A stretch of 64,000 bases of DNA from Clostridia bacterium (lineage in GTDB: Bacteria > Bacillota > Clostridia > TANB77 > CAG-508). Location of the stretch: the NCBI GenBank assembly GCA_017510525.1, contig JAFWNC010000013.1:1-64000 (forward strand), read 5' to 3'. The notes beneath the pieces were generated by a model. It saw only the letters and a program-made list of their open reading frames with translations. It was not told the DNA's origin and did no database searches. Numbering within the stretch: the first letter of the stretch is position 1; every line of letters begins with the position of its first letter. Shown here piece by piece: positions 1-51,309 of this stretch. Made by a program: the position numbers and the translations under genes.

Positions 1-277
1 AGAAGATAGTAAGATAATGAATAGTTGGGTTTATTAAAAAAATAAAAAAAGACATTTATGCAAAAAGGGGACGTGGAAATGGGGACGGTTCTCTGGAAAT
101 GGGGACGTGGAAATGGGGACGGTTCTCTTTTCCAAGGAAAACTTGGAAAAGAGAACCGTCCCCATTTCCACGTCCCCATTTCCAGAGAACCGTCCCCATT
201 TCCACGTCCCCTTTTTGCATAAATGTCTTTTTTTATTTTTTTAATAAACCCAACTATTCATTATCTTACTATCTTCT
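1..277. repeat. Perfect giant palindrome at the window edge
   Basis: Bases 1-136 are the exact reverse complement of 142-277, with a 5-base loop (GAAAA, 137-141). The core (about 64-214) holds tandem copies of GTGGAAATGGGGACGGTTCT in both orientations. The outer 63 bp of each arm are ordinary sequence: the right arm covers the last 11 codons and stop of the mannosyltransferase gene, and the left arm is an inverted copy of them. The palindrome runs to the first base, so the true arm may be longer. It may be a real tail-to-tail inverted duplication or a fold-back assembly join at a contig end. On the minus strand the hairpin follows a stop codon and could end transcription. Confidence 0.95.
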
Positions 278-1896
278 ATATACACCTTGCTAACTGTCTT
301 ACCAGAATAAATTGGATAATAATAAATAAAACCAACTAAAAACAATATTAAAACAGCAATACTAACGATCTTACTACCAAGCTTCTTCTCTATCCATTTT
401 AAAGCCCAAACAATTGAGAGCATTACAAAAGGAAGGGTTATAAAATAGTGGTAAATAAACATTATTCTGCCAATAAAAACATAAGGAAGCCATGTAGATG
501 CTATCATTACAAGTAGTAAAGCAGTTGCCTTATTTCGTTTTACAATCGTATATAATAAAGAAATAACTGTAGCAATAGCTCCAAACCACCAAATAAATGG
601 ATTACCTAAACATACAATATCAGACACCATATCAGTAGCCGGATAATTAACATAATACCACATAGGCTTATATAGAACTGGCCACGTATACCAACTAGAA
701 GTAAAAGGATGTTCAGCTTCAAGTTTAGAATGATATTCATACATATCCTTAGTATATTTAACCAATGAATTTAAATCTTTTACTCTACAACCTTTATTAT
801 TAAATAAAGGAATATAAGAAGCTAAATAAATACAAATAGGAATCACTATAAAGAAAATAACACAAGCACCTATAACTTTCCAATCATCTTTATTAAAAGA
901 TTTATTCTTAACAATATTATAAATAAAATGTACAAAGAAAATAATTGCTAAGCCTAGACCAACAAAAAGAGCTGTCCATTTTGTCGCAATACCCATTCCA
1001 ATAAATAACCCAGAAAATAATAAATAAATCAATTTCTTTTTTAGACTACCTTTTTTCTCTATTCCAATATATTTAATCATAAATAAGAAAGAAGTCATGC
1101 AAAACAAAACTAAAAAACTATCAACAGTAGCAATTCTTGTCTGAACAAAATGCATACCATCTAAAGCCATAATAGAAGCGGAAATAACACCATACCACTC
1201 TTTTTTAAATAATTCCTTACCAATAAAATAAGCAACGATAATCATTAAAATTCCAGCAATATTTCCCATAAATCTAAATGCTAAAGGTGAAGAACCAAAA
1301 ATAGCAACAGGAATAGAGATTATAATTTTACCTAAAGGTGGATGAACACACTCAAAAGGCTCAATATCGTTAAGATGTTCATACGCTGTTCTAGCATGAT
1401 AAACCTCATCAAAATAAACACTATTCATAAAAGATATTTCATCAGGAACAGTATCTTGCTCATCTACTAATGCCTCATCTTTATCATCTACAACATCTAT
1501 TCCAATAACATTGTCATTATCATCATAAGCAACAACTTCACCAATACTATTATTTTCATATTCAGAATAGATTCCAATATATTGATATTTAGAATCTGAA
1601 TTTACTTCTATATCCTTCCAAGTGAAAACGCAACTATAATCAAATTCACAATTCAAATAAAAAGCCTGTTTCGAGTTTTCCTCTTCCATCAGATAAACTT
1701 TATAATGATTTATATTATATCCGATATAAAATCTAATTTTTTTAATATTTGTCATATTATCCAAACGTAAAACAGAAATTTCTTTTCTATCAAAAGTTTT
1801 AAATGACTTAGGACTCTTACCACTTCCTAAATTATAAAAAGATACAATAGAATATACCAAAATTATTAAAACTAAAACAATAGCACTTTTCTTCAT
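241..1896 (-). CDS. Protein O-mannosyltransferase (PMT/GT39 family)
   Basis: Integral membrane enzyme expected to move mannose from a polyprenyl-phosphate carrier to proteins outside the membrane. At 551 aa it has one N-terminal membrane segment, then an extracytoplasmic region to about residue 150. Next come the PMT hallmark YFDEVYHARTAYEHL, whose Asp-Glu pair is the presumed catalytic site, and the HPPLGK motif, followed by about ten membrane segments. The ATG start has GGGGGA five bases upstream; an in-frame TTG four codons earlier would put that ribosome site inside the gene. The last 11 codons are repeated in inverted orientation at the window edge. Family is clear; the target proteins are unknown. 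Confidence 0.85.
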   Translation of the reverse strand: MKKSAIVLVLIILVYSIVSFYNLGSGKSPKSFKTFDRKEISVLRLDNMTNIKKIRFYIGYNINHYKVYLMEEENSKQAFYLNCEFDYSCVFTWKDIEVNSDSKYQYIGIYSEYENNSIGEVVAYDDNDNVIGIDVVDDKDEALVDEQDTVPDEISFMNSVYFDEVYHARTAYEHLNDIEPFECVHPPLGKIIISIPVAIFGSSPLAFRFMGNIAGILMIIVAYFIGKELFKKEWYGVISASIMALDGMHFVQTRIATVDSFLVLFCMTSFLFMIKYIGIEKKGSLKKKLIYLLFSGLFIGMGIATKWTALFVGLGLAIIFFVHFIYNIVKNKSFNKDDWKVIGACVIFFIVIPICIYLASYIPLFNNKGCRVKDLNSLVKYTKDMYEYHSKLEAEHPFTSSWYTWPVLYKPMWYYVNYPATDMVSDIVCLGNPFIWWFGAIATVISLLYTIVKRNKATALLLVMIASTWLPYVFIGRIMFIYHYFITLPFVMLSIVWALKWIEKKLGSKIVSIAVLILFLVGFIYYYPIYSGKTVSKVYIEDSKIMNSWVY

Positions 1897-1989: not shown

Positions 1990-3471
1990 TTATACTCTCT
2001 TTCTTCTATTAAACCATACAATAAAACCAATACCCATAATTATAATAGGAATAGCAACAATTACGATTCTAACATATCTATCTTGAGCCTCTGTAGGCAT
2101 ATATTTTGTTAAAGAAGTAGATTTTCTAATAGAATACATTTCTCCTCTTGAACTTAAATATGCAAATGAATTCATAGCTAAGTTATAGTTTGAATCTAGA
2201 GCAAACATAGGTGCATTAAGTCCTATAGAATTATCAATAGCATCAGAAATTGAAACAGCAGAAGATAAAACAACTAACTTTGAAGTAACGCCATCAGAAA
2301 CAATCTTCTCAGCTGATAATCCCATAGTAAATTCGCCCTCTTTCTCTTCTTCAGTTTCAACATCAACAGCAACAGCTTTAGATGAAGAATAAACCAAATT
2401 TTTAATAGTAACTTTAAGTTCAGAAAGCTTATCAGATTCAGCAGTTTCAATAATTCCAGGATAGTATAATAAAGGAGCAATATTAGCATTATAAATAAGT
2501 CTAGTAATCTCATTATCTCTAGCTACATTTCCTTGAATATAACCATAAGCACCAGCAACAGTATAAGATTCCGTTTCAATAACATATTTATTTGGCATGC
2601 TAATACCATACAAATCTAAAACTTTTTGGAAATTAGGAAATTCCTTAAAATCTGAAATACGAATATCTTTAGCTATAAATATATTTCCACCTTTATTAAT
2701 GTATTCAATAATAGCATTAGCCTCTGTTTCAGTTAAATCAGTAGTAAGAGAAATTATAGATAAAATATCACAATCCTCTGGAACACTTCCAGTTGAAACT
2801 AAATTTAAAGACTTAACATCATATAGTTCATTATTCAAAGCATCATTCAAATAGTAAACTCCTGAAGAAGCAGAATAATTAGATTTTCCTTCTAAGAAAT
2901 ATACAACAGGTTTTTCTTCCATATTAACATCTAAAATAGCATTAGTTAACTTTTGTTCAGTAATATCAACACTATTATAATTTTCATCATATGTGTACAT
3001 TTCTTCGTTATAAATATATTTAGTTTTTAAATCAGACTTAACAATAATCTCAGAATAATTATCTTCTAAATAATATTCTTCAACTAAGTTAGGGTCTTCA
3101 TCTTTAGTAACAACCTTATATTCAATTTTTTTATTTTCATGGTTATATTGTTTTAATAAATCAACTAAAGCAGAGTCCTCTGCATATCCCCATACATAAA
3201 CAGTAGTATCACGTTCTAAATCTTTAACAGCATTTTTTGAAGTATCAGAAAGTGTATATAACTTATCCTCAGTAAAATCTATTTGAGCTAAATTAATATT
3301 TTTAATACATAAATTTAATAATAAATATAAAGCAACAATTATAATTATTAACATGATTGTTTTAGATGTATCTTTTAAACAATAATCTCTAATTACGCGA
3401 AATTTCTCTTTAAAAGATTTCTTCTTTTTATTATCATCAGAAATTTCTTTTTTATCTTTTTTTGAAAACAT
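1990..3471 (-). CDS. GldG-like ABC transporter auxiliary protein
   Basis: Predicted membrane-anchored partner of the ABC permease and ATPase directly upstream (16-base gap to the permease). The 493-aa protein has a lysine-rich cytoplasmic start, one membrane segment at about residues 38-58, a large extracytoplasmic region, and a C-terminal membrane segment (about 468-487) ending in RRKRV. This is the layout of the GldG/ABC_transp_aux family. The ribosome site GGGAGG precedes the ATG. In Bacteroidetes this family supports gliding, but relatives occur in many non-gliding bacteria, so the exported substrate here is unknown. Confidence 0.75.
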   Translation of the reverse strand: MFSKKDKKEISDDNKKKKSFKEKFRVIRDYCLKDTSKTIMLIIIIVALYLLLNLCIKNINLAQIDFTEDKLYTLSDTSKNAVKDLERDTTVYVWGYAEDSALVDLLKQYNHENKKIEYKVVTKDEDPNLVEEYYLEDNYSEIIVKSDLKTKYIYNEEMYTYDENYNSVDITEQKLTNAILDVNMEEKPVVYFLEGKSNYSASSGVYYLNDALNNELYDVKSLNLVSTGSVPEDCDILSIISLTTDLTETEANAIIEYINKGGNIFIAKDIRISDFKEFPNFQKVLDLYGISMPNKYVIETESYTVAGAYGYIQGNVARDNEITRLIYNANIAPLLYYPGIIETAESDKLSELKVTIKNLVYSSSKAVAVDVETEEEKEGEFTMGLSAEKIVSDGVTSKLVVLSSAVSISDAIDNSIGLNAPMFALDSNYNLAMNSFAYLSSRGEMYSIRKSTSLTKYMPTEAQDRYVRIVIVAIPIIIMGIGFIVWFNRRKRV

Positions 3472-3486
3472 ATCTACACTCCCTCC

Positions 3487-4167
3487 CTATTTAACACTTT
3501 TTCTTCTTTGTAAAATAATGATAGTTAAAAGTATAAATAAAATAGAGAAAGATAAATAACCAACTACCTCTTTCAAAGAAATAACACCAAGCGGAAATTT
3601 TTGAAACATACTAACTAAAGAAAACATAGAAAGTATTCCAACACTTGATTGTAAGAAACTAATAACTAAGAAAAATGCAATAGTAATAATTGCAGCAATA
3701 ATCTGACTCTCTGTAAGACAAGAAGCAAACATACCAAAAGATATATATGACATAGCTAAAAGGAAAAATCCTAAACTAGTAACTAATGCAACAACAATAG
3801 ATGGTTTACCAAAAAAACATAATATTATAAAATATATAAAAAATAAAGCAATAGTAATTAAAATAACACTACAAGCAGCTAAAAACTTGCCCATAACAAT
3901 ACTAAAAATACTTCTAGGAGAAGTCATAATAAGAATATCAGTACCACTCTTTTTCTCTTCAGCAAACATTCTCATTGTTAAAACTGGAGTAATAAAAGTT
4001 AAAACAATAATACTATCCCATAAGATATATTCGAAATTAATATAGTGTTGAGAAAAAGTATAATTATAAAAGATTAAACTAACAACAACTAAAAATAAAC
4101 CTATAAAAACATAACCAATAGGTGTTAAAAAATAATTCTTAAATTCCTTTTTTAAAATAGCAAACAT
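3487..4167 (-). CDS. ABC transporter permease (GldF-like, ABC-2 type)
   Basis: 226 aa with six predicted membrane segments, starting with the typical MFAILKKEFKNYFLTPIGY. A conserved stretch after the second segment (MRMFAEEKKSGTDILIMTSP) is characteristic of ABC-2 permeases of the GldF/NosY kind and is thought to contact the ATPase. The gene lies one base after the ATPase gene and just before the GldG-like gene, so the three form one operon and one complex. The substrate cannot be read from sequence. Confidence 0.8.
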   Translation of the reverse strand: MFAILKKEFKNYFLTPIGYVFIGLFLVVVSLIFYNYTFSQHYINFEYILWDSIIVLTFITPVLTMRMFAEEKKSGTDILIMTSPRSIFSIVMGKFLAACSVILITIALFFIYFIILCFFGKPSIVVALVTSLGFFLLAMSYISFGMFASCLTESQIIAAIITIAFFLVISFLQSSVGILSMFSLVSMFQKFPLGVISLKEVVGYLSFSILFILLTIIILQRRKSVK

Positions 4168-4168
4168 C

Positions 4169-5113
4169 TTAATTTTCTCCTCCTTCTTTTTTAGTAAGTT
4201 TCAAGAAAGCATCTTCTAAAGAATTTTCCTTTTTCTTCATCTCTATAATTATAATATCCTCATTAGCGCATTCCTTAAATAAATCTTTTCTAATATCACT
4301 ATTAGAATCACACTCTAATTCATAGTACTTAGAATTATTAACTTTCTTATCAAGCTTACATTCTTTAATACTAGAAATTCTTGAAACAACACTTTCAAAT
4401 TTGTCATTTTCGTCTTCAATAACAACTGAAACATGATTACCTTCACTTGTTTGATTTTCAATTTCTTCAGGAGTTCCAATTTTAACGATCTCACCCTCAT
4501 TAATAATAATTATTTTATTACACATCTGGCTAACCTCAGAAAGAATATGAGAACTTAAAATAACAGTATGATTTTCCTTTAAAGAACGAATAAGATCTCT
4601 AATTTCAGTAACTTGTTTAGGATCTAAACCAACAGTAGGTTCATCCAAAATTAGTATTTTTGGATTACCAACAAGAGCTCCAGCTAAACTAACTCTTTGT
4701 TTATAACCTCTAGAAATGTTTTTAATCAATTTATTTTCAACATCTTTAATATTCGCAGCATTTAAAACTCTCTCAATTTCTGCTTTTTTATCTGCTCTTT
4801 TAACAAGTTTTAAATCAGCCATATAAGCAATAAATTCCTTAACTGTTAAATCATTATATAAAGGTACATTCTCTGGCATATATCCTATTTGTTTTTTTGC
4901 CTTTTTAGGTTTTTTATCAATATCAAACCCATCTACAATAATTTGTCCACCAGAAGGCTCAATAAAACCAGTAATCATATTCATAGTAGTAGATTTACCA
5001 GCACCATTAGGCCCTAAAAAGCCAACAATTTCACCCTCTCCAACTTCAAAGCTAATATTCTTAACAGCCTCAAAATTACCATACTTTTTAGAAACATTCT
5101 TTACCTCAATCAA
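4169..5113 (-). CDS. ABC transporter ATP-binding protein (GldA-like)
   Basis: 314-aa cytoplasmic ATPase that should power the permease encoded next. It has Walker A GPNGAGKST near residue 34, a signature region NISRGYKQRVSLAGAL in which SRGYKQR replaces LSGGQ as in many ABC-2 exporters, and Walker B ILILDEPTVGLDP. The C-terminal 90 residues are a divergent accessory domain. The start is TTG, chosen because GGAGG lies eight bases upstream and the product begins with the usual IEVKNVSKKYG. Confidence 0.85.
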   Translation of the reverse strand: MIEVKNVSKKYGNFEAVKNISFEVGEGEIVGFLGPNGAGKSTTMNMITGFIEPSGGQIIVDGFDIDKKPKKAKKQIGYMPENVPLYNDLTVKEFIAYMADLKLVKRADKKAEIERVLNAANIKDVENKLIKNISRGYKQRVSLAGALVGNPKILILDEPTVGLDPKQVTEIRDLIRSLKENHTVILSSHILSEVSQMCNKIIIINEGEIVKIGTPEEIENQTSEGNHVSVVIEDENDKFESVVSRISSIKECKLDKKVNNSKYYELECDSNSDIRKDLFKECANEDIIIIEMKKKENSLEDAFLKLTKKEGGEN

Positions 5114-51221: not shown

Positions 51222-51309
51222 ATAAAAAAGTGGAAATGGGGACGGTTCTGTTTTCCACGAAAAATCTTTTTCGTGGAAAACAGAACCGTCCCCATTTCCA
51301 CTTTTTTAT
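51222..51309. repeat. Perfect 88-bp palindrome (GTGGAAATGGGGACGG family)
   Basis: Bases 51222-51264 are the exact reverse complement of 51267-51309 with a two-base centre. The arm contains GTGGAAATGGGGACGGTTCT, shared with the palindrome at the left edge. It includes the TAA stop of the WG-repeat gene, and on the minus strand ends in a run of T, so it can act as a strong terminator. Confidence 0.95.

Follow-up and report, generated by a model that had tools for sequence, protein, structure and literature searches.

A perfect 277-bp palindrome at a Clostridia contig end, read as a probable fold-back artefact on a real hairpin repeat

The closest described relatives of the repeat at this locus are the TIRtrons or TIRYT repeats (Di Nocera et al. 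2013, PMC3733652), which are the inverted repeats of RAYT group 1 or TnpA subclass 2.1 (PMC6006769). A second described kind, the CGTC-tagged REPs (PMC3733652), has 8–9 bp stems and leaves its CGTC tag unpaired; no transposase is associated with it. Perfect mirrors are also known as technical products: fold-back artefacts of library preparation have been documented for long reads (PMC12870357), and those that Breakinator (PMC12870357) flags or Pacasus (PMC6218980) corrects show a perfect mirror around a turning point that the true neighbouring sequence does not support.

Here we present an analysis of a palindrome that opens a 64,000-nt stretch of DNA (hereafter referred to as the window) from a Clostridia bacterium. 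We read this 277-bp palindrome, at a probability of about 0.93, as an artefactual contig end on a real 157-bp hairpin, with a fold-back product as its likeliest source and without gene duplication. The mirror and the lack of support from the neighbouring sequence are as in the artefacts handled by Breakinator and Pacasus; however, these tools address long-read data, whereas the trace here is a contig end in an apparent k = 141 short-read metagenome assembly. The hairpin itself is of a known kind: it ends in GGGGACG and is related to the inverted repeats that accompany TIR-type Y1 (REP-family) transposases. As in TIRtrons, a Y1 (HuH) transposase gene is bracketed by short inverted repeats that end in a GGGG-AC-type motif, and copies of such repeats, often in palindromic form, are dispersed, but GGGGACG(G/T) here departs from the published motif GGGGWSAS (PMC3733652, PMC6006769) in having G rather than A at position 7. 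The repeats resemble CGTC-tagged REPs (PMC3733652) in being dispersed, palindromic and CGTC-containing; by contrast, CGTCCCC here pairs with GGGGACG in much longer stems.

The palindrome and the gene that it touches

The source assembly (G000) is a draft of 30 contigs totalling 1.49 Mb, and one of them (C26, 84,168 bp) physically ends at window position 1. The palindrome was reported correctly in the first-pass annotation: arms 1–136 and 142–277 are 100% complementary, with zero errors over 136 nt and the 5-nt loop GAAAA between them. Each arm holds two copies of a unit of about 34 nt (at 63–128 and 150–215, with GGGGACGTGGAAATGGGGACGGTTCTCT), giving a hairpin with two tandem GGGGACG...GGTTCTC units per arm. 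Folded as a single strand, the inner 171 nt (55–225) reach −169.1 kcal/mol, against −51.7 ± 4.7 for shuffled sequences (z = −25), so the palindrome is not a product of chance. The features discussed below are as follows (strand given where one applies).

1–60: mirror of the gene tail, almost certainly artefactual; 100% reverse complement of 218–277; C26 ends at 1, and the neighbouring contig C8 diverges here
61–217: real 157-bp hairpin repeat; 76-nt arms, 5-nt loop, outer ends AAAAGGGGACG...CGTCCCCTTTT, two tandem units per arm; shared with the start of C8; z = −25
137–141: loop GAAAA; orientation conflicts with the reading from C8
218–277, minus: genuine gene-side flank; end of the mannosyltransferase gene (stop at 241–243) and 3' spacer
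241–1908, minus: PMT-family (protein O-mannosyltransferase-like) membrane glycosyltransferase, 555 aa (Pfam PF02366, PF16192, PF13231)
51230–51301: hairpin copy of the same family, assembled through; 43-nt perfect arms

Both Pfam PMT and PMT_4TMC match the mannosyltransferase, which has orthologue-like matches in congeners at 47–63% identity. About 11 codons of the gene and its stop lie in the right arm, as had been claimed. The accompanying description of a gene end cut by the window edge stands in so far as the gene end is inside the palindrome, but the edge is the true end of C26, which leaves no sequence further left to extend into, and the mirror stops there with the contig. A search of the whole 1.49-Mb assembly (query, window 1–1200) found the gene tail nowhere else, apart from its own mirror. 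The gene adjoins an apparent ABC transporter (1990–5113, minus) composed of an ATPase, an ABC-2-type permease and a large auxiliary protein, and the gene for the auxiliary protein neighbours the mannosyltransferase in congeners too.

Contig breaks at hairpins and the neighbouring contig

All 60 contig ends of the assembly were compared. Eight contig-end pairs share ends of exactly 141 nt, which points to a de Bruijn assembler with k = 141. From these end overlaps alone we infer the value of k, and likewise the read length and the assembler; we take 141 to be the default top k of MEGAHIT. Five of the breaks lie in hairpins of the window's repeat family, with perfect arms of 76 nt (C8/C26), 64 nt (C21/C22), 61 nt (C19/C23), 52 nt (C17/C25) and 51 nt (C13/C28; 97 nt with four mismatches). 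Ten measured copies that were assembled through have perfect arms of 21–51 nt. Every measured family hairpin with perfect arms longer than 51 nt is thus broken, as is one of the two with 51-nt arms, and most broken ends stop 28–39 nt beyond the loop. This division between broken copies (51–76 nt) and assembled-through copies (21–51 nt) leads us to conclude that long perfect hairpins are sites where reads fail.

The start of C8 equals window positions 106–217 at 100%, a stretch that takes in the right arm and runs on across the loop into the left one, and leaves the match exactly at the start of the gene flank (the equivalent of window 60/61), where C8 reads ...CTTTTTGTTTTTTATC and the window ...CTTTTTGCATAAATG, with unrelated sequence beyond. 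Unrelated sequence left of about position 64, which the first-pass annotation had named as the outcome that would speak against its reading of a mirror, is in effect what C8 provides. A 60-nt double-unit piece of the repeat (window 158–217) is matched in full only at C26, in both arms, and at C8, and by no other copy of the repeat in the assembly. On this sequence match, it is almost certain that one and the same hairpin, with 76-nt arms (61–217), forms the ends of both C8 and C26.

Gene order provides a second line of evidence. Four congeners (G013, G009, G007 and G001) carry, on one strand, the mannosyltransferase gene followed by genes for rubrerythrin and dipicolinate synthase subunit B (names that we presume from reading these sequences). 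On C8, a dipicolinate synthase B homologue at 1046–1638, which Pfam Flavoprotein matches and which is 63–79% identical by segment, agrees in place and orientation with the four congeners; ahead of it, at C8:120–905, is a kduD-like dehydrogenase gene. Taken together, the uniquely shared hairpin and the synteny identify C8, as judged from sequence comparison, as the true left neighbour of C26, with kduD sitting where relatives have rubrerythrin. Near C8:1303–1345 the reading frame of the dipicolinate synthase B gene shifts, so that the gene occupies two frames; the frameshift could reflect a pseudogene or an assembly error. The closest congener (G003) was tried as a guide to the left flank and set aside, its contig also stopping just past the gene, but lacking this hairpin.

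Origin of the mirrored gene tail

The mirrored gene tail (1–60) is almost certainly an artefact of sequencing or assembly. On this reading the genome has a real 157-bp hairpin between the mannosyltransferase gene and the region of C8 with the kduD-like and dipicolinate synthase B genes. Reads crossing such long perfect hairpins are missing from the assembly. A strand ending in the second arm could pair with the first arm and copy itself, and the resulting fold-back product most probably supplied the mirror of the hairpin and of 60 bp on the gene side. Working at k = 141, the de Bruijn assembler would then have attached this sequence to the gene contig and reached a dead end, a step that was reproduced in a toy graph.

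The toy graph was edge-centric, with k = 141 and the true order C8–hairpin–C26, and reads extending over 35 nt beyond the loop in both directions were dropped. Without a fold-back molecule both contigs stop shortly past the loop. When one fold-back molecule whose arms measure 136 nt is added, the gene contig begins at window coordinate 1 and C8 stays as it was. Fold-back arms of 120–140 nt also pass, whereas arms of at least 141 nt cause branching and a gene contig that starts at 142; the mirror arm of 136 nt is shorter than k, so the graph does not branch. On these results, fold-back during library preparation is the best mechanism. Arm and loop together (136 + 5 nt) equal k exactly, which the simple fold-back model permits, with arms of up to 140 nt, but does not predict.

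In one respect the two contigs disagree. Going inward, C8 and C26 both give GAAAA for the loop, whereas one hairpin read from its two sides should show GAAAA once and TTTTC once; the other hairpin-joined contig pairs that were checked are concordant. Either one contig end carries the wrong loop strand or the locus varies in the population.

The main rival to the fold-back mechanism leaves the feature an artefact and concerns only how the artefact was made. The assembler alone may have turned round: a small k (at most 75, below the 76-nt arm) collapses the arms and permits a path from gene through arm, loop and arm back to gene, so that, with no chimeric molecule needed, a mirrored small-k or local contig could pass into the k = 141 graph. 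We hold this route to be possible, if on the unlikely side. It would also account for the loop conflict between C8 and C26, and the toy graph at k = 21–59 indeed cannot separate the two flanks and breaks in the arm. However, in that graph the gene-side reads on their own led no further than the arm, the loop bubble or the point at which reads gave out, and simple unitigs gave no turn-round; an extra step of bubble resolution or local assembly has to be assumed.

Readings that place the mirror in the organism fare worse. A true inverted duplication, with the gene tail repeated in inverted form left of the hairpin, would be expected to match without error if recent, as the arms do, yet we consider it very improbable. 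C26 ends at position 1, the assembly holds a single gene tail, and C8 is the syntenic left neighbour. Simulated real genomic palindromes also behave differently (arms of 76–1200 nt, k = 141): with arms of up to 138 nt the contig runs on into the left flank, with arms of at least 140 nt it breaks at 142 or further right, and none of the tested arm lengths yields a contig ending at 1. The suggestion of an inverted duplication is therefore not supported, whereas the other reading that had been offered with it, of a fold-back read or an assembler turning at a hairpin, agrees with a mirror at a contig end, a real neighbour in C8 and the absence of a second gene tail. It is also improbable that the sampled population contains two arrangements of the hairpin locus, for example through inversion of the hairpin or loop, with C26 and C8 drawn from different variants. 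The differing loop orientation would follow from such variants, but inversion of the loop alone cannot put gene-tail sequence on the other side, and the remaining hairpin-joined pairs are concordant.

The GGGGACG repeat family

The motif GGGGACGGTTCT(N0-2)TTTTCC matches the source genome 23 times forward and 22 times in reverse and is absent from 298 other genomes sampled across the phylum. The shorter form GGGGACGGTTCT(N0-3)TTT occurs in 42 of 196 genomes of the class, and its reversed control gave few matches. All Rfam matches were sub-threshold and concerned unrelated long hairpins, microRNA precursors of plants and animals among them, and a literature search on the exact repeat motif found no relevant paper. 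A second hairpin family (CGCACCGAATGCAACTTGAGCTG/CAGCTCAAGTTGCATTCGGTGCGCGTCCC), with the same GGGACG/CGTCCC end motif, is present at several contig ends (the far end of C26 and the starts of C4, C9 and C3).

One Y1/HuH REP-type transposase gene is present in the genome (C8:26593–26985; PF01797, 54.6 bits; NF047646, 70.8 bits, just under the cut-off of 80), enclosed in a 916-bp element with the ends GGGGACG...CGTCCCC. Across the taxonomic family, GGGGACG upstream and CGTCCCC downstream accompany 16 of 28 transposase loci, the source genome included (about 0.02 GGGGACG per locus expected by chance), and the elements so bounded measure 0.8–1.3 kb. Genomes with such a transposase have a median of 29 GGGGACG copies, against 6.5 in those without (Mann–Whitney p = 4e-8, a value that ignores relatedness). 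Judged by their sequences, the GGGGACG-bounded transposase elements look like published TIRtrons in a one-position variant. Unlike the TIRtron expectation, the window repeat (GGGGACGTGGAAATGGGGACGGTTCTC) and the inverted repeat of the resident transposase (GGGGACGTCCATTAAAAGTCTAA) are not identical beyond the motif. A closer match to the window repeat, GGGGACGGTTCT, flanks a transposase in another genome of the same family (G487). This transposase (G487:C13:133039–133425) has on each side a tandem array of four GGGGACGGTTCTTTTTTGAAA-type units of about 21 nt, inverted and near the window repeat motif.

A more active role for the repeats seems to us decidedly unlikely. In it, the hairpin would be inverted within the population by cruciform or transposase processing, which would produce the differing loop orientation of C8 and C26, and a TIR-type Y1 transposase would drive the GGGGACG repeats as an actively spreading non-autonomous family. 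On the reading of an artefactual contig end on a real hairpin, a false inverted gene duplication is removed from the record, and a probable joining of C8 to C26 becomes available for the draft. A perfect mirror at a contig end, with arms shorter than the assembler's k and seated on a real hairpin, is a warning pattern. Five breaks in the draft genome are thereby explained as hairpins of one repeat family.
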